Origin: Clostridia bacterium
GTDB lineage: Bacteria; Bacillota; Clostridia; Oscillospirales; CAG-272
DNA: 52,707 nucleotides
Direction of reading: 5' to 3'
NCBI GenBank assembly: GCA_017399145.1
Contig: JAFQEG010000022.1
Location: 1 to 52,707, forward strand
Shown here: positions 155 through 52,496 of the stretch, in pieces
Layout: the number at the start of each line of letters is the position of its first letter
Position numbering within the stretch: the first letter of the stretch is position 1
Program-made: the position numbers and the translations under genes
Notes under the pieces: model-generated
Told to the model about the DNA's origin: nothing
What the model saw: the letters and a program-made list of their open reading frames with translations, nothing else
Databases searched by the model: none

Positions 155-1171
155 TCATTTCATTTTTGTTAGAATTTTAACAATTCCATCCTTGCTTATG
201 GCTTTTTCAACATCCTCGTAGGTGATTTCTAGGGTGCCATTCTTTATTTTATCGTATAGGTCTATAAAGATTTGCCATCTTGCGTAAGTGATTAAGGTGT
301 CCTCTATCCAATAGGAAAACTCTGTTCCTTCCATTTTAGATTCAAGCCCTTTCATTTTTGAATAAAGTGGTAGCCCATCCCCTGCATCGTGCCACAAATC
401 CACGAAGGCGTGTCGGTATTTTTTAGAATTTTGCTTATTTTCAACAAAGTCGAAGGCATCGCATTTTTCTATTGTTATTTTGTCCTTATTTGGGAATTGA
501 GGTAGTATATTTTCCTCGAAAAGCTGAATTACATTTTCGTCCCTTTCGACAATTGTTATGCTATTTACCTCTTGCTTTTGACTTACCATATAAGCAAAAT
601 AGCCCATACCAAGTCCAAAAACAGCCACATCCCCTTCCATTTTTTCGATATGGTGCTTCATTGTTTCAATTTCGTTTGGCTTGATTGCCATCCATTCTAC
701 ACCGTTTTCGAATACTGTTGGGAAGCTAAATTCCTCGTTAAAAAAGCCGATTTGAGGTATTTCTGTGTAGTTGTCTTCAACTAAAATATCCTTATAGATA
801 AAGCCCTCGTATTTTTGATAGGTTTGATAACCTAGACTCCAATTCTTTAGCTTTTTTGTGGGAATTTTTATGTTTTTGTAATATGGGTCGCTTTTGTATT
901 CTGTTGCATTTAGCTTTTTTACAGATTTTTTTAGATACTCTCTTTCTAAAATTCTAATGACACCCTCGTCGTCACTTAGTGCGTTTGATAGAAAGATTGC
1001 AAAAACTCTTTCCTCGTTTATGCCCATATCAGACCCGATTTCCTTCATAAGCCTCTCGTTTACTAGTGTTGGAAATTCGTTTAAATAATCGGCAATTAGG
1101 GAAAATGCCAAGAAATTCTTTTTTCTTGTTTTTTCAAGCTCCTCTATTTTTGATAGGTCCTCTTTTTTCAT
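155..1171 (-). CDS. SAM-dependent methyltransferase-like protein
   Basis: 338 residues. An N-terminal helical region of about 100 residues precedes a Rossmann-like core. Residues 182-190 (VAVFGLGMG) look like motif I of class I SAM methyltransferases or spermidine synthases, and the acidic ER-D at 209-211 fits the ribose-binding position. A later FVDLWHDAGDG could be the motif IV region. The substrate cannot be told from sequence. The start codon lies two bases after the stop of coaW, so the two genes are almost certainly cotranscribed; no functional link is proven by this. A non-catalytic SAM-binding role remains possible. Confidence 0.6.
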   Translation of the reverse strand: MKKEDLSKIEELEKTRKKNFLAFSLIADYLNEFPTLVNERLMKEIGSDMGINEERVFAIFLSNALSDDEGVIRILEREYLKKSVKKLNATEYKSDPYYKNIKIPTKKLKNWSLGYQTYQKYEGFIYKDILVEDNYTEIPQIGFFNEEFSFPTVFENGVEWMAIKPNEIETMKHHIEKMEGDVAVFGLGMGYFAYMVSQKQEVNSITIVERDENVIQLFEENILPQFPNKDKITIEKCDAFDFVENKQNSKKYRHAFVDLWHDAGDGLPLYSKMKGLESKMEGTEFSYWIEDTLITYARWQIFIDLYDKIKNGTLEITYEDVEKAISKDGIVKILTKMK

Positions 1172-1172
1172 C

Positions 1173-1997
1173 TTACTTTTCGAATGAGGAAAGCGCTGAT
1201 CCTATAACTGTACTGAATTGTGCGTTTTCTGGAATAATAAAGTTCATATTAAACATTTGGTTTAAAACATCAAAAATTTGTGGCGCTTGGGAAATTTGTG
1301 TTAGATTTCCTGTTAGTACAATATCCTTTATGCCAAATTGCTTTGATGCAAAATAAGCTACCATACCAACTGTTTCAAACACCATATTGATAAGGCCGAT
1401 TGCAAGGTCACCTTGAGTTGCTATATCGTCAAGCTTACCAAAGTTTGATGCAGTCATTTGGCTACTGAGCCCCATATCCTTACGTGAAATATCCTTAATT
1501 TTTAGGTCAACGTTGTTTATGTCACCTGTCTTTGCAAGGTCGTCAATATGCTCTATCTTGCTAAGCCCTAATAGCTTGCCTGAAAGTCCCATTAGGGTAC
1601 CTCCACCAACGCCTGTGCCTCCTAAATATTCAGGCTCACAGCCACGCTTTGCGTGTACTAGCGCTGTACCTGTGCCAAGGCTTACTATTATAGCCTCGTC
1701 AAGGCCTGATAGATAAAGTCCACCTAAGCCTATGCTTTTAAATTCAGGGGTAACCTGACATTTTAGGTTGTAAATTGGCTTATTAACGTAGGATGAGCCA
1801 ACTCCTGTTATCATTACCTTTTCTATATCGTTAAGTCCTAAGCCGTTAGTATCTGTAAATTTACCAAAGGCTCCATATATTGACGTAATTGGGTCGTCTG
1901 CTGTAACAAACATGGGCTTTATTAGTTTTTTGTTACTGTCAAAGCCTACTATTTTCGTGGTGCTACCACCAACATCTATTCCTATAACTACTCCCAT
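1173..1997 (-). CDS. coaW: Type II pantothenate kinase
   Basis: Phosphorylates pantothenate, the first step of coenzyme A synthesis. The 274-residue protein opens with the ATP-binding DVGGSTTK phosphate loop at about residues 7-14 and carries VSLGTGTA and a glycine-rich GGTGVGGGT segment, as in the ASKHA-fold type II kinases of Gram-positive bacteria. I chose the ATG at 1995-1997 because AAGGAGAG sits just upstream; a longer reading would add 13 residues without a ribosome site. A promoter with TTGATT and TAAAAT lies at 2027-2055. Type II enzymes are usually insensitive to CoA feedback, which is family knowledge. Confidence 0.85.
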   Translation of the reverse strand: MGVVIGIDVGGSTTKIVGFDSNKKLIKPMFVTADDPITSIYGAFGKFTDTNGLGLNDIEKVMITGVGSSYVNKPIYNLKCQVTPEFKSIGLGGLYLSGLDEAIIVSLGTGTALVHAKRGCEPEYLGGTGVGGGTLMGLSGKLLGLSKIEHIDDLAKTGDINNVDLKIKDISRKDMGLSSQMTASNFGKLDDIATQGDLAIGLINMVFETVGMVAYFASKQFGIKDIVLTGNLTQISQAPQIFDVLNQMFNMNFIIPENAQFSTVIGSALSSFEK

Positions 1998-2026
1998 ATT
2001 TATTCTCTCCTTGTTCAGTTTTTTAT

Positions 2027-2055
2027 ATTTTACCATAGTATATGGGAAAAATCAA
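2027..2055 (-). promoter_or_regulatory. Promoter for coaW and the methyltransferase-like gene
   Basis: Minus-strand TTGATT (2050-2055), 17-base spacer, TAAAAT (2027-2032), 30 bases before the chosen coaW start. Confidence 0.65.
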
Positions 2056-2073
2056 TATATTCTGCCCTGTTTA

Positions 2074-2103
2074 TTGACATAAAACGCTTAAACGTGTTAA
2101 AAT
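2074..2103 (+). promoter_or_regulatory. Orphan forward promoter
   Basis: TTGACA (2074-2079), 18-base spacer, TAAAAT (2098-2103). It points to a ribosome site and ATG at 2134 but to no full gene; see the small reading frame below. Confidence 0.55.
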
Positions 2104-2133
2104 AATTAAAAGATTACTGTTAAAGGAGTGCCA

Positions 2134-2238
2134 ATGAACGCTTACAATACCGATGCTTACATAAAAAAATCGAGGCAATGCCTCGATTTTTTTAATCTAA
2201 TGCTATTTCGTGACCTAATTCGGCAGATTTATAGATAG
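2134..2238 (+). CDS. Possible 34-codon peptide or truncated gene start
   Basis: An ATG at 2134 follows AAAGGAG with five-base spacing and a good promoter. It encodes MNAYNTDAYIKKSRQCLDFF and a further 14 residues to a TAG at 2236-2238. The reading frame runs straight through the terminator hairpin at 2164-2194 and into the 3' end of the opposite gene, so most transcripts should end before the stop codon. The simplest view is the leftover 5' end of a deleted gene; a regulatory leader peptide is an alternative. I do not recognise the peptide. Confidence 0.3.
   Translation: MNAYNTDAYIKKSRQCLDFFNLMLFRDLIRQIYR
2164..2194. terminator. Bidirectional terminator
   Basis: Stem AATCGAGGC / GCCTCGATT with a tiny AAT loop, flanked by A and T runs on both sides. 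It ends the ThuA/Gfo-Idh transcript on the minus strand and the orphan transcript on the plus strand. Confidence 0.85.
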
Positions 2239-3217
2239 CCTCAAGGATTTTTACCATATTTACGCCCTGTTGTGGTGTAAAGTCTGGGTCCGCCTTGCCT
2301 TCGATTACGTCTATAAAGTGTCTTATGTTTTGCTCGTGGTGTGGTGGGCAATTATAGTCATCAATTGCAGGCTTAATTGTAATATTTGTACCACATTCCT
2401 CGGTAAATACATCGAATTTTCTATCAATGCCTGACATTCTTGAGCCTGATTTTGTACCACGAAGCTCAACAAACATTTGGTCATATTCGATATTAGATGC
2501 CCAAGAAAATTCTATTTGCAAGCAAGCACCATTTTCAAAACGAATAAAGCCCATTGCAAGGTCCTCAACATCTGTTTTTGAGTATGAGGTGTGTGGGAAT
2601 TTTGAATAGGTGCATCCACTTACTGTAACAGGCTTTGGATTGCCCATTAGGTACATTGCAAGGTCTATAATATGTACACCAAGGTCGATAAGTGGTCCTC
2701 CACCAGATTGCTTTTTATCGGTAAACCAACCACCCCAGCCAGGGATACCACGACGGCGAATCCAACCACAGCGACCTGCATAGATTTCACCCATTTTGTC
2801 CTCGGCAATATATTGCTTTAGAAACTTTGTTGTAGGTCTATAACGATTATTTCTTATAACCATTAAAACCTTGCCATTTTTCTCTGAGGCTTCCTTCATC
2901 TTTTCTGCCTCAGCTACGTTTATTGCATCTGGCTTTTCACAGATTACGTGCAAGCCATTGTTTAGGGCATAAATTGCAATCTCGGAGTGAAGCACGTTTG
3001 GTGTACAAATGTCAACTGCATCAAGTGTTTCTCTTTGAATCATTTCACGATAGTCGGTGTAAAGCTTAGCATTTGGGTATCTTTTTTCGACACTCTCTAG
3101 CTTTTTTTCGTCAATATCGCAAATTGCAACTATTTCTGCATTGTCTATTTTATCGTAGGCACCCATGTGAGGTCCTTGGCAGATTTTACCTGCGCCTACT
3201 ATGCCGATTCTAACCAT
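2192..3217 (-). CDS. Gfo/Idh/MocA-family sugar oxidoreductase
   Basis: NAD(P)-dependent dehydrogenase of the glucose-fructose oxidoreductase / inositol dehydrogenase group, 341 residues. The N-terminal Rossmann domain has GIVGAGKICQGPHMGAY at 5-21; the family EKP motif is at 94-96; the C-terminal alpha/beta domain carries GGPLIDLGVHIIDLAMYLMG, whose Asp and His are the usual catalytic region. The chosen ATG at 3215-3217 overlaps the stop of the ThuA gene as TAATG, so translation is coupled. Pairing with ThuA is common in sugar or glycoside catabolism. The actual substrate cannot be read from sequence. Confidence 0.88.
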   Translation of the reverse strand: MVRIGIVGAGKICQGPHMGAYDKIDNAEIVAICDIDEKKLESVEKRYPNAKLYTDYREMIQRETLDAVDICTPNVLHSEIAIYALNNGLHVICEKPDAINVAEAEKMKEASEKNGKVLMVIRNNRYRPTTKFLKQYIAEDKMGEIYAGRCGWIRRRGIPGWGGWFTDKKQSGGGPLIDLGVHIIDLAMYLMGNPKPVTVSGCTYSKFPHTSYSKTDVEDLAMGFIRFENGACLQIEFSWASNIEYDQMFVELRGTKSGSRMSGIDRKFDVFTEECGTNITIKPAIDDYNCPPHHEQNIRHFIDVIEGKADPDFTPQQGVNMVKILEAIYKSAELGHEIALD

Positions 3218-17999: not shown

Positions 18000-18096
18000 T
18001 CCAGCGGGATGCAACACACGCACCGCAACCAAAACGGTTTTCGTTTCTTGGGCAACTCCCCGTCCCAAAAACACTTGACGCACGTATGTTTACTCT
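18000..18096 (-). ncRNA. Tetrahydrofolate riboswitch
   Basis: On the minus strand, blocks occur in the order I know for the class I THF riboswitch: GAGTAAACAT, GCGTCAAGTG, a TTGGG / CCCAA hairpin, ACGAA, GCGGTG, and TTGCATCCCGCTGG. It sits in the leader of folT-folC, the classic target. The arm that follows can mask the folT ribosome site. The final test would be the THF covariance model. Confidence 0.82.
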
Positions 18097-18118
18097 GTAA
18101 TATCTTAATTATACATAA

Positions 18119-47610: not shown

Positions 47611-47790
47611 CTCTCCCCTGTTGGGAAACGAAGTTGAAAACAATTGAGTATTGTTTTCAACAAAGTTTTCTCTACCAAGCAAGGAGTTCTCGAAGCAATC
47701 TATGATTGCGACACAGAACGACTATGCGACTTGAGCGGCTGCGAAGCAGGAACCTATGCTTTAGCATTGATTCGAGCACGCAGAGGGAGG
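47611..47790 (+). repeat. Structured repeat family R2, copy 1
   Basis: 180-base element related to 52104-52278. It holds a hairpin with 12-bp stem GTTGAAAACAAT / ATTGTTTTCAAC (47633-47661), a CTGC-GAA-GCAG hairpin (47739-47749) and ATGCTTTAGCAT (47756-47767). Stem changes against copy 2 are compensatory. It starts with CTCTCCCCTG, like other repeats near here. Confidence 0.7.
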
Positions 47791-48402: not shown

Positions 48403-48480
48403 TTCCCTATCGGGACACTGTTTTCGCCATAACAAAGGGAAGCATAAGAAAAAGGACACCAATGTGGTGTCCTTTTTCTT
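48403..48480. repeat. R2-related fragment with terminator hairpin
   Basis: TTCCCT and AGGGAA (48403-48442) close a divergent, shorter form of the R2 outer stem; AAAAAGGACACC / GGTGTCCTTTTT at 48449-48476 repeats the terminator at 47793. Confidence 0.5.
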
Positions 48481-48516
48481 ATGTATGTATGGGTCTAAAT
48501 CTCGTATTTAGGTATA

Positions 48517-48898
48517 GTGTGTGGGACAAAAAGTATTTTTAGTAAATAAAAAACAGTTAGCGTTATACTAACTGCTTATTGTTAAAATGAGGAAGTTCCT
48601 TCTGCGCGCATTAACTTTTAAGATACCGTCACGCAATAGCTAATTCACGCAACAGCTGCCGTTCCATGGCACTTTCGTAACCATCTACCCTAATTCATGA
48701 CGACCAAAGGTTCAGTAATTTTATAAGCGTATCAAACTTCCAAACGACGCTAACTGTGTTAAACTTTAAGGGTAAACCCAACAATTTCCGATATAAACAG
48801 GTCGTTATCCCGAAACCGATATTAGCATCTCGGCTATCCTTTTTAAGAAACCGTTATAATTTTTAGTAAAGGTCTATAAGCAAAATACTTATAGACCC
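48517..48898. repeat. Cassette-like unit 1, with the candidate RNA inside
   Basis: Starts GTGTGTGGGACAAAA (48517-48531) and ends with the hairpin GGTCTATAAG-N7-CTTATAGACC (48871-48897) plus C. The same head and tail bound units 2 and 3, which have different contents. Here the content is the candidate RNA at 48548-48855. Confidence 0.6.
48548..48855 (-). ncRNA. Candidate structured RNA, possibly raiA type
   Basis: About 310 bases without a coding frame. The minus strand ends in a terminator, CAGTTAG-N7-CTAACTG then TTTTTT (48548-48574). It holds many G- and U-rich, purine-loop-like blocks: AAAAAGGATAGCCGAGATGC, GGGTTTACCC, CATGAATTAGGGTAGA, GGAACGGCAGC, GCGTGAATTAGC, CGGTATCTTAAAAG. ACAGTTAGCGT (minus strand, 48747-48757) can pair with ACGCTAACTGT of the terminator arm (48553-48563), 11 perfect base pairs. 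GATAC and GTATC bracket a central domain. From memory these resemble the raiA RNA motif, but the name needs a covariance search. Confidence 0.65.
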
Positions 48899-48908
48899 AT
48901 ACTAGTGC

Positions 48909-49072
48909 GTGTGTGGGACAAAATCTATCGTGACGTTTTGCTAAAAAATTGCAATAAAAAAGACCTATAAAAGCGTTAAAATGCTCTTATAGGTCTTAAT
49001 TTTTGCTATAAAACGCTTATTTCAGCGTAAAAATAAAAAATATAGGTCTATAAGCAAAATACTTATAGACCC
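48909..49072. repeat. Cassette-like unit 2
   Basis: 164 bases. Same head (48909-48923) and tail hairpin (49045-49071) as unit 1; the content is a terminator-like hairpin, GACCTATAA / TTATAGGTC (48962-48994), and an AAACGCT / AGCGT hairpin (49011-49028). About 96-97% identical to unit 3. Confidence 0.8.
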
Positions 49073-49079
49073 ATACGAG

Positions 49080-49117
49080 TGGCTCCCCCTGTCAGAGCTT
49101 GTGGCAAAGCCACAAAG
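49080..49117. repeat. Short GGCTCCCC repeat with a stem
   Basis: GGCTCCCCCTGTCAGAG followed by CTTGTGGC-AAA-GCCACAAAG. Similar GGCTCC(C)(C)CTG-starts lie at 47611 (as CTCTCCCCTG), 52104 and, as the tRNA 3' end, at 52422. It marks the join to the AraC fragment. Confidence 0.5.
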
Positions 49118-49599
49118 AAAATGGGATTTTCCGAACTATAGCACTTCTCGCCCAAATTGACAAGAACAGCAAAAAAGCAGGTACGCTAGTCGAATGCTTT
49201 CATAAAATTAAGGATATGATTAAAGAAGAAGAGGGGGTTTTAACCCCACAAATCATCAAAACCAATAAAGTATCGAGTTTATGTATTGCATACATAAATC
49301 AACATTTAAACGAACCACTTTCTTTGAAATATTTAGAAAAAAAACTCCATATTAGCGCATCGCATATTAGACAAACTTTCAAAAAAGAAATCGGGCTTAC
49401 TGTACATAAATATGTTTTGGTACAAAAAATGCAACTTGCACGACAACTGCTTATCGAAGGGAACACTCCCGTTTCCGTTGCGCAACAATTAGGATACGAA
49501 TACTATTCCACCTTTTACGAAAATTACGTCAATTATTTTCATCTGTCGCCAAAAGCCTATTCAAATCTCTCTTCTCAACGTCTTTCTGGCAACGATTAA
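49099..49599 (+). pseudogene. AraC-family regulator, N-terminally truncated
   Basis: Open for 166 codons. The C-terminal double HTH is intact (SLKYLEKKLHISASHIRQTF; VSVAQQLGYEYYSTFYENYV). The effector domain is lost: the frame begins in the repeat at 49099 (TTG start, no ribosome site) and true homology starts near ENGIFRTIALLAQ. The repeat/gene junction shows that a rearrangement cut the gene. It is convergent with the GH127 gene, so it may once have controlled arabinoside use. Confidence 0.75.
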
Positions 49600-49667
49600 A
49601 AAGTGTTTTTTACCATATACATCCAGTTTTTCTAAGAGATTTCACTTAATTAGATATTTCACTTTAA

Positions 49668-49712
49668 TAAAAAACTTGGCTTACTTTATCGCAAGATAAG
49701 CCAAGTTTTTTA
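49668..49712. terminator. Bidirectional terminator
   Basis: AAAACTTGGCTTA / TAAGCCAAGTTTT around a 13-base loop, between the AraC fragment and GH127. Confidence 0.8.
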
Positions 49713-49767
49713 TTTTTCAATTTTCTCAAAATCAAACCTTATTTTTATCAAAATTTTTTATATAAAA

Positions 49768-51534
49768 CTATTTAAGATTAAACCAAACGCTCATTTTATC
49801 ATCAGAAGTCGCCCAATTTTTACCACTGGAAGCGTAATCGGTGAATATCAAATCTTCCCTACCTACTCTTCTTACACGATAGCGAATCATTTCATTCTTA
49901 TCGGGTTTATCAAATTGCCCGTCGGCGTTCACTAAATAGATATTTTTTTTGATATCTTTGTTTCCCTTGCCTTCGTCAAGCGCCAAAACGATCGGGCCAT
50001 AAATAAAAGCTGTTTTTTCGTTTAATTGTTCTTTTTGTAAGCGCATAGGAAAATTTAATATGATTTCGTCGTTTTTCCACGCTCTTTCTACAACGTAATA
50101 TCCGTTCTCTTCAACGCAAACCGCCCCCGATATATCGGCTTTTTCAGCCCAAGACGGTTTTCTAAATCTTAAAACAAATTTTTCTTCCGTTGCACAAGAC
50201 ACCGCCACCTTAATTTTTCCGTCAACAGGATAATTGCCCGTTATTTCTATTTTTACGGCATTTCTAAGTGGCGTCGTCGATTGAACGTTTCCGCTAAAAT
50301 AATAATTTAAGGTAAAACCGTTATTATCCTTTACCGTCGCAAGCAAAGGCATTAACGCTACACCCGCAGCCGCAATGCACGCACAGCAACCGTAATTGCT
50401 ACCGTCTTCCATAATCTTAAAACCGCCAACTTCTTGCCCGCGTTTATCGTAAACCAACGGACTATAACTATCAAACGGTAAAGGTGCAACCTGTTTCTTT
50501 ACAATACTGCTATAATGCGTATTCCATTCCGTATTCAAACTTCCCCAAAGCGCGTTTAAACCCGAGTGCTCTATTCTTTCTATATATTTGACGTCGCCCG
50601 TATTCATGTACAAACGAGCAAGCAACCGTATCCAAGTTACGGTTACGCACGTTTCTTGAACGACCTTAGGTTGTTTTTCCGTTTGATTTACATAAAAGCC
50701 ATCAAAAAGTTCATCCCTGCCGCTCAAACCACCAATAACCGAACCTTCCGTTGAAAAAGCGTCTTCAACGAATTTTTGTACCAACTTAATATCTTTTTCG
50801 TCTTGCGTTACTTCATAATACGCTAAAAGCCCTTCGAATAAAGACATAGTTTCGTACGCCTTTGTCGTTGGATACTGCGAGGGATAAACGCCTTCCTTTT
50901 CCGCACTTTCGAATATATCCCCACGACTGCAACCACCACTGCGTATAATATATTCTGCAAAATCTAAATATGCCTTTTTACCCGTTAACTTATAAAGCTC
51001 GACAAACGGCTCTAATATGGTACAAGAATTTAATCCACCCCAACAATTACTCGTATCGCGAATATCCTTTTTCCCATCGCCGATATGCTCGCAAATATAA
51101 TCCGCCGTTTTTTCCATAGCCGTCATGATTTGCGTTTTCAAGCTTTCGTCTTTACATATCGAGTAAAAATGTTGCAATCCGCTTAAAACGTACTTTCTAC
51201 TCCATAAATCCCAACCCGAAAACTCCGTTTCCACCGTATACGATGCAATACGCCCTAAGTCGTCCATTGTTTTTAACAATTCTTGCACCGCAAAAGTGAG
51301 CGTTTCATACAATTCTTCATTCGCGGAATATCTATACGTCAGACATCCACCGCGCATCATTTTTCCCCAATACTCGCCCCTCCAACCAAGGTCGTTGCTA
51401 TCTAATCGAAGGCGAAATTGATTTGCAAACTTTTTCCACAACGCCTTATCGTTTAATTGTTTTGTTATTGTAAAATCAACCGTTTCCGCTACTTTTCCCA
51501 CATACAACGCTTCCGATGGATTTAAATAATGCAT
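49768..51534 (-). CDS. GH127-type beta-L-arabinofuranosidase
   Basis: 588 residues of the DUF1680 family, no signal peptide. An (alpha/alpha)6 barrel precedes two beta domains. VVQETCVTVTW has Glu294 and Cys296; SNYGCCACIAAAG has Cys383, 384 and 386. In GH127 a zinc site formed by Glu and three Cys holds the nucleophilic cysteine, so the set fits an active enzyme that releases L-arabinofuranose. GH146 is an alternative. The gene looks richer in CG-ending codons than its neighbours and sits between direct repeats, which suggests transfer. Start after AAAGGAGAG; promoter at 51650-51678. Confidence 0.88.
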   Translation of the reverse strand: MHYLNPSEALYVGKVAETVDFTITKQLNDKALWKKFANQFRLRLDSNDLGWRGEYWGKMMRGGCLTYRYSANEELYETLTFAVQELLKTMDDLGRIASYTVETEFSGWDLWSRKYVLSGLQHFYSICKDESLKTQIMTAMEKTADYICEHIGDGKKDIRDTSNCWGGLNSCTILEPFVELYKLTGKKAYLDFAEYIIRSGGCSRGDIFESAEKEGVYPSQYPTTKAYETMSLFEGLLAYYEVTQDEKDIKLVQKFVEDAFSTEGSVIGGLSGRDELFDGFYVNQTEKQPKVVQETCVTVTWIRLLARLYMNTGDVKYIERIEHSGLNALWGSLNTEWNTHYSSIVKKQVAPLPFDSYSPLVYDKRGQEVGGFKIMEDGSNYGCCACIAAAGVALMPLLATVKDNNGFTLNYYFSGNVQSTTPLRNAVKIEITGNYPVDGKIKVAVSCATEEKFVLRFRKPSWAEKADISGAVCVEENGYYVVERAWKNDEIILNFPMRLQKEQLNEKTAFIYGPIVLALDEGKGNKDIKKNIYLVNADGQFDKPDKNEMIRYRVRRVGREDLIFTDYASSGKNWATSDDKMSVWFNLK

Positions 51535-51649
51535 AATTCTCTCCTTTAATTTTTGATACTTTCATTCGTTTTGAAATTAAATTATCTAAACTAAAATGTT
51601 CAAAAATCTTATATTATAATTATATCAAATAAAATTCCTTTTTTTCTAT

Positions 51650-51678
51650 ATTCTATCACTGCGGAATTTTTTTGTCAA
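51650..51678 (-). promoter_or_regulatory. Promoter for the GH127 gene
   Basis: Minus-strand TTGACA (51673-51678), 17-base spacer, TAGAAT (51650-51655); 5' leader of about 110 bases. Confidence 0.72.
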
Positions 51679-51768
51679 TTATTTTTATCTATTCTTCATT
51701 GAATATTTTTACCCACCTTTCAGTCAACATTTTTATATACTTTTTACTGAGTAAATATCCACCCGCTA

Positions 51769-51813
51769 TGATATGCACCCCAAAAGTTTGTCTAACTTTT
51801 GGGGTGCATATCA
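51769..51813. repeat. Perfect 20-bp inverted repeat, IS-end-like
   Basis: TGATATGCACCCCAAAAGTT (51769-51788), a five-base centre and its exact complement (51794-51813). The TGCACCCCAAAAGTT arm resembles the IS end at the left edge (TGAACCCCAAATAGTT). A head-to-head pair of IS3-type ends, or a terminator, are both possible. Confidence 0.6.
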
Positions 51814-51833
51814 CTATCGCGTGGTTTTCTTGC

Positions 51834-51897
51834 GCAATTCCGAAAACAGAATTGCGCTATACAAAAAGACGAGATTGAATAAATCTCGTCCTTTTTA
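51834..51897. repeat. Two further hairpins before cassette unit 3
   Basis: GCGCAATTC / GAATTGCGC (51834-51859) and AAAGACGAGATT / AATCTCGTCCTTTT (51863-51896). The second is a good intrinsic terminator on the plus strand. Confidence 0.6.
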
Positions 51898-51929
51898 TGC
51901 ACGTCAGCTTTTTTATGAGTGCAAGATGC

Positions 51930-52095
51930 GTGTGTGGGACAAAATCTATCGTGACGTTTTGCTAAAAAATTGCAATAAAAAAGACCTATAAAAGCGTTAA
52001 AATGCTCTTGTAGGTCTTAATTTTTGCTGTAAAACGCTTATTTTAGCGTGAAAATACAAAAAATATAGGTCTATAAGCAAAATACTTATAGACCC
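51930..52095. repeat. Cassette-like unit 3
   Basis: 166 bases, same head (51930-51944), internal terminator-like hairpin and tail hairpin (52068-52094) as unit 2, with four substitutions and a two-base insertion. It lies in direct orientation to unit 2; the AraC fragment and GH127 gene lie between them. Confidence 0.8.
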
Positions 52096-52103
52096 TGACT
52101 TTT

Positions 52104-52278
52104 GGCTCCCTCTGCTGGGAAACGAAGTCGAAAACAATTGAGTATTGTTTTCGGCAAAGTTTTCTCAACAAAGTAGGGAGAGTGATGAGTTTTGACTAAA
52201 ACGAAATCAATCGACCATACGACTTGAGCGGACGCGAAGCGTGAACCATATGCTTTAGCATTGGTTCGAGCACGCAGG
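52104..52278 (+). repeat. Structured repeat family R2, copy 2
   Basis: Related to 47611-47790. Outer arms CTCCCT and AGGGAG (52106-52111 and 52175-52180), inner stem GTCGAAAACAAT / ATTGTTTTCGGC (52127-52155), ACGC-GAA-GCGT hairpin (52232-52242), ATGCTTTAGCAT (52250-52261). Confidence 0.7.
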
Positions 52279-52279
52279 G

Positions 52280-52377
52280 TTCTTGTTGTGGCTGGGCTCT
52301 CACACCCTACGGGATGGCTACTTCGTAGCTCACAGCTCTCTCACTACGTTCGACGTTGTCTTGAGCCACAACAAGAA
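52280..52377. repeat. 98-bp inverted-repeat element, MITE-like
   Basis: TTCTTGTTGTGGCT (52280-52293) and its exact complement AGCCACAACAAGAA (52364-52377) bound an insert with a GCTAC-TTC-GTAGC hairpin. No coding frame. Confidence 0.55.
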
Positions 52378-52380
52378 GGC

Positions 52381-52496
<116 letters not shown>

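Follow-up and report, generated by a model that had tools for sequence, protein, structure and literature searches.

In this work, we analyzed three short units that share their ends within a 52,707-nucleotide stretch of DNA from a Clostridia bacterium (contig JAFQEG010000022.1; the whole stretch is hereafter called the window). We conclude, with a probability that we put at roughly 80% for the explanation as a whole, that gut Clostridia contain a family of small gene cassettes, site-specific and non-autonomous, to which the units belong, and that the window holds cassettes 1 and 2 in tandem plus a third, gene-less cassette near a tRNA-Asn gene. The cassettes are inserted precisely at a TG dinucleotide, mostly between the 3' end of a tRNA (or a copy of it) and a terminator hairpin, so that one TG stands on each side. 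Cassette 1 is a non-coding or decayed cassette, and cassettes 2 and 3 are mini-cassettes without cargo.

The 15-base head GTGTGTGGGACAAAA occurs exactly at 48517, 48909 and 51930, where the three units start; a scan of the window allowing up to 3 mismatches returned 5 matches against 1.65 expected, the exact ones being the three unit heads. The tail GGTCTATAAG-N7-CTTATAGACC, a 27-base hairpin, occurs exactly at 48871, 49045 and 52068 and in none of 100 shuffles. These exact matches, far beyond chance, bear out the first-pass annotation, which had described three units with a common head and tail; its observations that units 2 and 3 are near-identical (4 substitutions and one 2-base gap across 166 columns) and that units 1 and 2 lie ten bases apart were confirmed as well. 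The left boundary that it gave to unit 1, 48517, had to be moved further left, as a second, degenerate head TATGTATGGGTCTAAATCTCG starts at 48484; such a tandem head is also present in other genomes. Elsewhere in the assembly, which totals 1,834,650 bases in 44 contigs and is 76.5% complete, neither the tail nor GTGTGTGGGAC, the 11-base start of the head, recurs exactly.

When aligned, the ends resolve into 9-bp inverted arms, with GACCCATAC as the right arm and GTGTGGGAC as the left one, separated by an 8-bp spacer and each 3 bp from a TG. At the junction between cassettes 1 and 2 (GACCCATAC-TAGTGCGT-GTGTGGGAC, 48894..48919) the core TG occupies 48906-48907, and the left arm of cassettes 2 and 3 is the B2 head itself (described below), with a proper TG core. 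Tandem junctions were found in the window and in the loci L140, L144 and L150, with arrays seen only two long; their spacers are TAGTGCGT (window), TTGTGCGT (L150) and TAGTGCAT (L144), that of L140 being one base longer. Of the 21 left sites, 20 have TG at spacer positions 4-5, as do 17 of the 20 right sites; the four tandem junctions are counted in both lists. Five further left ends, which the search pattern had missed, were added, with TG in L142, L263 and L264 and none in L141 and L153, which brings the left total to 23 of 26. If the sites were independent and TG occurred at 1/16, the binomial values for 20/21 and 17/20 would be about 2e-23 (left) and 3e-18 (right); these are too small because the sites are related. 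TG is clearly fixed at the core. Tn7/Mu-like ends, suggested by the TGT start and the repeated motif, were discarded, since no 5-bp duplication was seen at the ends when read by eye. IS200/IS605 elements have a fixed target tetranucleotide to their left and no inverted ends; membership in this group was rejected, as the cassettes have inverted arms at both ends and varying left flanks.

The reading of the units as a cassette or miniature mobile unit, put forward by the first-pass annotation from common ends around different contents, receives strong support from the relatives, which show the same ends, swapped contents, tandem junctions and exact empty sites. A pattern common to both head types, searched in one genome each for 84,980 species, gave 35 stretches. 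Extended ends around differing contents were present in 19 of them (L064-L067, L070-L073, L076, L079, L081, L082, L085, L087, L091, L093, L094, L096 and L097), in 16 metagenome-assembled genomes (MAGs) of Clostridia, counting L070 and L072 with L065; the other 16 stretches lacked extended ends, were scattered over the taxa and look like chance. The 16 cassette MAGs are assigned to Clostridia, Clostridiales or Oscillospiraceae, and their animal hosts include goat, sheep, water buffalo, roe deer and water deer. Unit 1 DNA searched against 146 family genomes gave one outside match, to 24 bases of the head with the same tandem head alongside, and the A end (the paired heads) matched 7 of 395 family genomes, namely its own, G027, G442 and four coinciding in position with genomes already found. 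G027, G442 and one of these four, the genome that carries L146 (G424 = G687), belong to the genus of the window. In other searches, a 14-base head matched 5 of 295 genomes of the order, its own included, the other 4 without context; unit 2 DNA gave only weak fragments, without ends, in 3 further genomes of the family; nothing matched in collections of phages, plasmids and E. coli (one search was run with unit 1 only); and in viral contigs 24 head and 8 A1 matches, all without the surrounding ends, and no tail match were obtained.

In the orientation of the window, a full cassette consists of an A end, cargo, an optional B region and the tail palindrome. The A end comprises two heads about 34 bases apart, and the B region comprises B1, B2 (which serves as the head in units 2 and 3) and an internal hairpin, in this order. 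Between cores, the nine cassettes whose two ends are both present span 376-2771 bp, the next TG being used for the length of L134, whose right core is lost. In all 18 cassettes with readable contents (L134, L136, L138, L140-L143, L145-L154 and L156; L137 was left out because it repeats the cassette of L136, whose right end is lost) the one or two main cargo open reading frames (ORFs) are directed from the tail towards the A end; shorter opposite-strand ORFs, overlapping some of the main ones, were ignored. We scanned 20 proteins with Pfam and PADLOC, one of which, a glycosidase from L135, is insecure as cargo and was not counted as such because the tail was not found. The cargo identified comprises a methyltransferase with a Tsp45I-type restriction enzyme (L134), a type IIG enzyme with a specificity subunit (L150), a DUF4379 zinc protein (L138, with L145 alike by sequence), glutathione peroxidase with MarR (L143), an MFS transporter (L156), a BspA-type leucine-rich repeat protein (L154), a partial M6 peptidase (L142), a helix-turn-helix (HTH) protein (L141, with L147, L151 and L152 alike by sequence) and a SHOCT protein with a weak PDC-S31-like partner (L149). 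Seven of the 20 scanned proteins had no Pfam family: the lipoproteins of L140 and L146, the proteins of L148 and L153, and one each in L138, L145 and L149. In addition, B-tail pieces without a gene occur in L139, at the start of a contig, and L155, where the left side keeps the usual B sequence and has no TG core. In L153, genes with Fic and RelA/SpoT domains (795-3032) lie directly upstream of the cassette.

We joined the flanks of the nine two-ended cassettes with a single TG and searched for the resulting sequences in the collected loci. Exact empty sites were recovered for three of them (L146, L138 and L156), and no clean one for the other six. For L146, the match (54 nt, 96%) was to L216, a tRNA-Asn/terminator site that stands empty on a different contig of the genome to which the window belongs; for L138, to another site of the same contig (61 nt, 95%) and to sites in G430 (65 nt, 91%; 61 nt, 89%); and for L156, to a further place in its own contig (55 nt, 96%), with only 10 nt left of the junction. 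Where seen, a filled site differs from the empty one by the cassette and a single additional TG. The left end directly follows a strong hairpin in 13 of 16 non-tandem cases (L136 and L137 sharing one left flank in this count), a strong hairpin being a 50-nt window within the lowest 3% of energy of 4000 random windows from the same loci, coding sequence included. On the right side, the flank starts with TGG, the reverse of the tRNA CCA, in 11 of 15 non-tandem right ends, L134 being dropped from this count as its right end is lost. L148 adjoins an intact tRNA-Arg; in L146 and the window, a repeat containing a copy of the tRNA-Asn 3' end forms the right flank, and the actual tRNA lies a few hundred bases away. 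With a hairpin on the left and a tRNA end or TGG on the right, the natural target therefore seems to be the point at which a tRNA, or a copy of its end, meets its terminator.

The terminator scan returned five terminator-like sites, where shuffles gave 0.6. On the gene strand, the stem of the cassette 2 tail extends to 17 pairs and is followed by TTTTTATTTT (49040..49076, minus strand), and the internal hairpin of the same cassette (48960..48997, minus strand) is followed by TTTTATTGCA; both score as terminators, the latter being a second terminator-like site of this cassette. The tails of cassette 3 and L146 score likewise, that of cassette 3 on the other strand too, and 17 of 20 tails are followed by a T-run (at least 5 in 8) on the gene strand. 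From this anatomy, the tail palindrome with its T-run would act as a replacement terminator that restores termination for the tRNA, the second hairpin would insulate, the cassette gene would have its own promoter, and the displaced tRNA terminator at the far end would now end the cassette gene. One promoter-like site of L146 (TTGAAA-17-TATAAT) lies just before the cassette gene. As to movement, the cassette would exist as a circle with the junction GACCCATAC-NNNTGYRT-GTGTGGGAC; a recombinase supplied in trans, most likely of the serine type, would exchange strands over the 2-bp TG overlap, and the further arm-motif copies within the ends (A2, B1 and B2) would bind it. Because TG is asymmetric, the cassette would enter in one orientation, with its gene running with the tRNA.

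Several observations weigh against this explanation. The core misfits are L154 (eroded), L141 and L153 on the left, and L140, L153 (off by one) and L134 (lost) on the right; a strong hairpin is missing from the left end of L148, L152 and L154; and the right flanks of L141, L143, L151 and L153 lack TGG. The tails of window cassette 1, L149 (944) and L156 are without a T-run, and promoter-like sites in L146 are no commoner than in shuffles (7 against 6.9). Among the six cassettes lacking a clean empty site, L145 gave weaker or shorter matches, and L134, L143, L148, L149 and L151 gave none across the junction; besides, the empty sites that were found are other members of repeated site families and not the same locus without the cassette. 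Cassette ends of L136, L137, L144, L147, L263 and L264 lie within about 0.5 kb of contig ends, and because so many copies sit there, arrays may have been cut short in these short-read assemblies and be longer than seen. Assemblies, furthermore, cannot show excision or circles, and no recombinase was identified inside the cassettes or consistently beside them.

The first-pass annotation had envisaged a recombinase encoded elsewhere, and the search did not single out a mover. No recombinase match was found among the 20 scanned proteins. Among the ORFs of the flanks, searched by regular expression and profile comparison, there was one full large serine recombinase, in L139 and 7 kb from the tail, and a partial gene of L153 gave only a weak zinc-ribbon match under the cut-off. 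Large serine recombinases are present in 11 of the 17 cassette genomes; the ORFs recovered, for which the extraction picked the wrong one at several loci, include no closely related group common to the genomes, the best between-genome identity being 57%; G427 alone has twelve matches to PF07508, a large serine recombinase domain, in a 1.5 Mb assembly. PF00589 matches occur in 15 of 17 genomes, and one group of tyrosine recombinases, linked at 35% identity or more, is present in 14 of 17. The one member that was scanned matched best as XerC, with 228 bits (cut-off 335), and as integron integrase with 95 (cut-off 265); this group looks like the host XerC/D. In favor of the cassette explanation, the cargo HTH protein is 89% identical between G421 and G429 and the XerC/D-like proteins of the same two genomes 32% identical, a comparison weakened by the possibility that the latter are not orthologous. 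Classical tyrosine integrases need a match longer than 2 bp. The 2-bp TG overlap suggests a serine-type recombinase acting in trans, although we hold this assignment only tentatively, at slightly under even odds. Serine integrases use a 2-bp overlap whose central dinucleotide must match, and their integration is precise, as in the cassettes (PMC3936721); large serine recombinase elements differ from the cassettes, in which no recombinase gene was recognized and extra copies of the arm lie inside the ends.

Inverted ends equidistant from TG, subterminal repeats of the end motif and cargo without a recognized recombinase would also fit short DDE-type transposons or miniature inverted-repeat transposable elements, duplicating a 2-bp TG target and moved by a targeted transposase in trans. 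We regard this as unlikely, if the best surviving of the alternatives: such elements usually have a less specific target and rarely duplicate TG, and adjoining cassettes share a single TG. Somewhat less likely still are integron-like cassettes, in which a tyrosine integron-integrase recombines folded single strands and few matching bases are needed. The attC core box is GTTRRRY, and no GTT was found in the cassette junctions when read by eye; the scanned tyrosine recombinase falls under the XerC cut-off and further under that of integron integrases; and insertion takes place at many tRNA-type sites, not at one attI. The resemblance to integron cassettes and to clusters of attC sites lacking integron-integrases (CALINs) lies in small, tandem units with usually one and at times two genes, some of them ORF-less, with a hairpin near the site and a recombinase absent from the array or acting in trans (PMC8618304); the units described here differ in their TG core with GTGTGGGAC arms, their tRNA-type ends, their own terminator-like hairpins and the lack of a recognized integron integrase.

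IS110-like RNA-guided recombination, with the B-tail or the interior of unit 1 as guide RNA, is in our view improbable. It would account for a core dinucleotide being all that donor and target have in common, as with the CT core used by the bridge-RNA element IS621 (PMC11208160), and for units 2 and 3 being conserved non-coding DNA. Nevertheless, the B region is absent from window unit 1, L141, L148 and L151, the repeated arm motifs resemble protein sites, the cassettes have neither a recognized recombinase gene nor a demonstrated guide RNA, and there was no IS110 match among the 20 scanned proteins, the genomes themselves not having been searched for IS110. The least probable alternative is that of ordinary tyrosine-integrase tRNA islands shrunk to one gene, since donor and target share TG and not a tRNA 3' fragment, no such fragment is restored, no integrase was recognized and one or two genes only are carried, even though the targets are tRNA 3' ends as in the islands of Islander (PMC4383910) and the nearby tandem tRNA-Asn-end repeats look like island traces.

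We thus retain the explanation of a cassette family inserted at TG. The mobile gene cassette concept is known from integrons; the sites, the target, the terminator-like hairpins and the missing enzyme set this family apart. Staphylococcal cassette chromosomes share with it variable cargo at one site and tandem units, and differ in being far larger, in having their own serine recombinase and in their target. Chances seem to us about even that the family represents a second, integron-independent cassette system, that is, a pool of insulated one-gene units with its own sites, an undescribed trans-acting recombinase, a TG core, docking at tRNA 3' ends and a terminator swap; no description of such a cassette system was found in the open-access library searched. 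If true, cassette capture outside integrons would be another route for the sharing of single genes, here including restriction-modification, in gut Clostridia. With such short and sharply bounded ends, sequence alone suffices to catalogue the pool, and the enzyme that is missing becomes a concrete target; it is also tempting to speculate that a compact system with a 2-bp core at tRNA ends could become a useful integration tool.

The content of cassette 1 deserves separate mention, as the first-pass annotation had assigned to it a 310-base RNA and, to the units in general, RNA-like content instead of proteins. The latter is not supported: in the relatives, the cargo of the 18 cassettes with readable contents is protein-coding. 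The 330-base interior of cassette 1 has no ORF of at least 60 amino acids with an ATG, GTG or TTG start; the longest stop-free runs of unit 1 are 61 codons (plus strand) and 52 codons (minus strand), and the 52-amino-acid open stretch has no Pfam match. The interior folds no better than shuffled sequence (z -0.62, with 29 of 100 shuffles at least as good), and thus an RNA is not demonstrated. Folding of the whole unit gave z -1.82 on the minus strand (3 of 100 shuffles as good), to which the tail hairpin contributes, and z -1.20 on the plus strand (9 of 100). At the gathering threshold, Rfam gave no match in the units, and the matches obtained by E-value, all under the gathering scores, were taken as chance. 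Against the loci compared, from L064 on, the interior of unit 1 matched nothing beyond 15 bases at E 0.67. Cassette 1 may carry an RNA, or decayed cargo.

The layout of the window is as follows. Cassette 1 (48484..48905, minus strand) abuts on its left a terminator-like hairpin (48443..48483, minus strand) detected by the terminator scan, whose T-side ends in the left core TG (48482..48483, within the spacer 48479-48486); at the empty site L216, a hairpin almost identical to it immediately precedes tRNA-Asn. The A end of the cassette (48487..48540, plus strand) contains two head copies (48487-48512 and 48517-48540), the same tandem A end as in relatives, and is followed by the non-coding interior (48541-48870), on the A side of which the scan placed another terminator-like hairpin (48551..48577, minus strand), and by the tail palindrome (48871..48897), which lacks a gene-strand T-run and was not scored as a terminator. 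Cassette 2 (48908..49079, minus strand), with the B2 head at 48909-48932 as its left arm, ends at the right core TG (49080..49081), after which comes GCTCCCCC, resembling a reversed tRNA 3' end. Cassette 3 (51929..52102, minus strand; tail at 52068-52094) lies between the core TGs 51927-51928 and 52103-52104. Its right flank is a repeat (52106..52420) that has first a copy of the tRNA-Asn 3' end and then a terminator hairpin before the tRNA-Asn (gtt) gene (52421..52496, minus strand), the same type of flank as in L146.

Repeats with a copy of the tRNA-Asn 3' end (CCCAGCAGGGGGAGCCA), several per genome, lie beside tRNA-Asn in the window (47613-47790 and 52106-52370), in L216 (1520-2070) and in L146 (840-1170 and 2755-3070). 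Cassettes use them as a docking platform, and they may be left over from tRNA islands. Between cassettes 2 and 3 (49082-51926), the window contains a gene for a GH127 beta-L-arabinofuranosidase and a fragment of an AraC-type regulator, and nothing resembling this stretch was found between the flanks of the L146 cassette. Elsewhere in the window, a tetrahydrofolate riboswitch at 18000-18099 (minus strand) was identified by a strong Rfam match.

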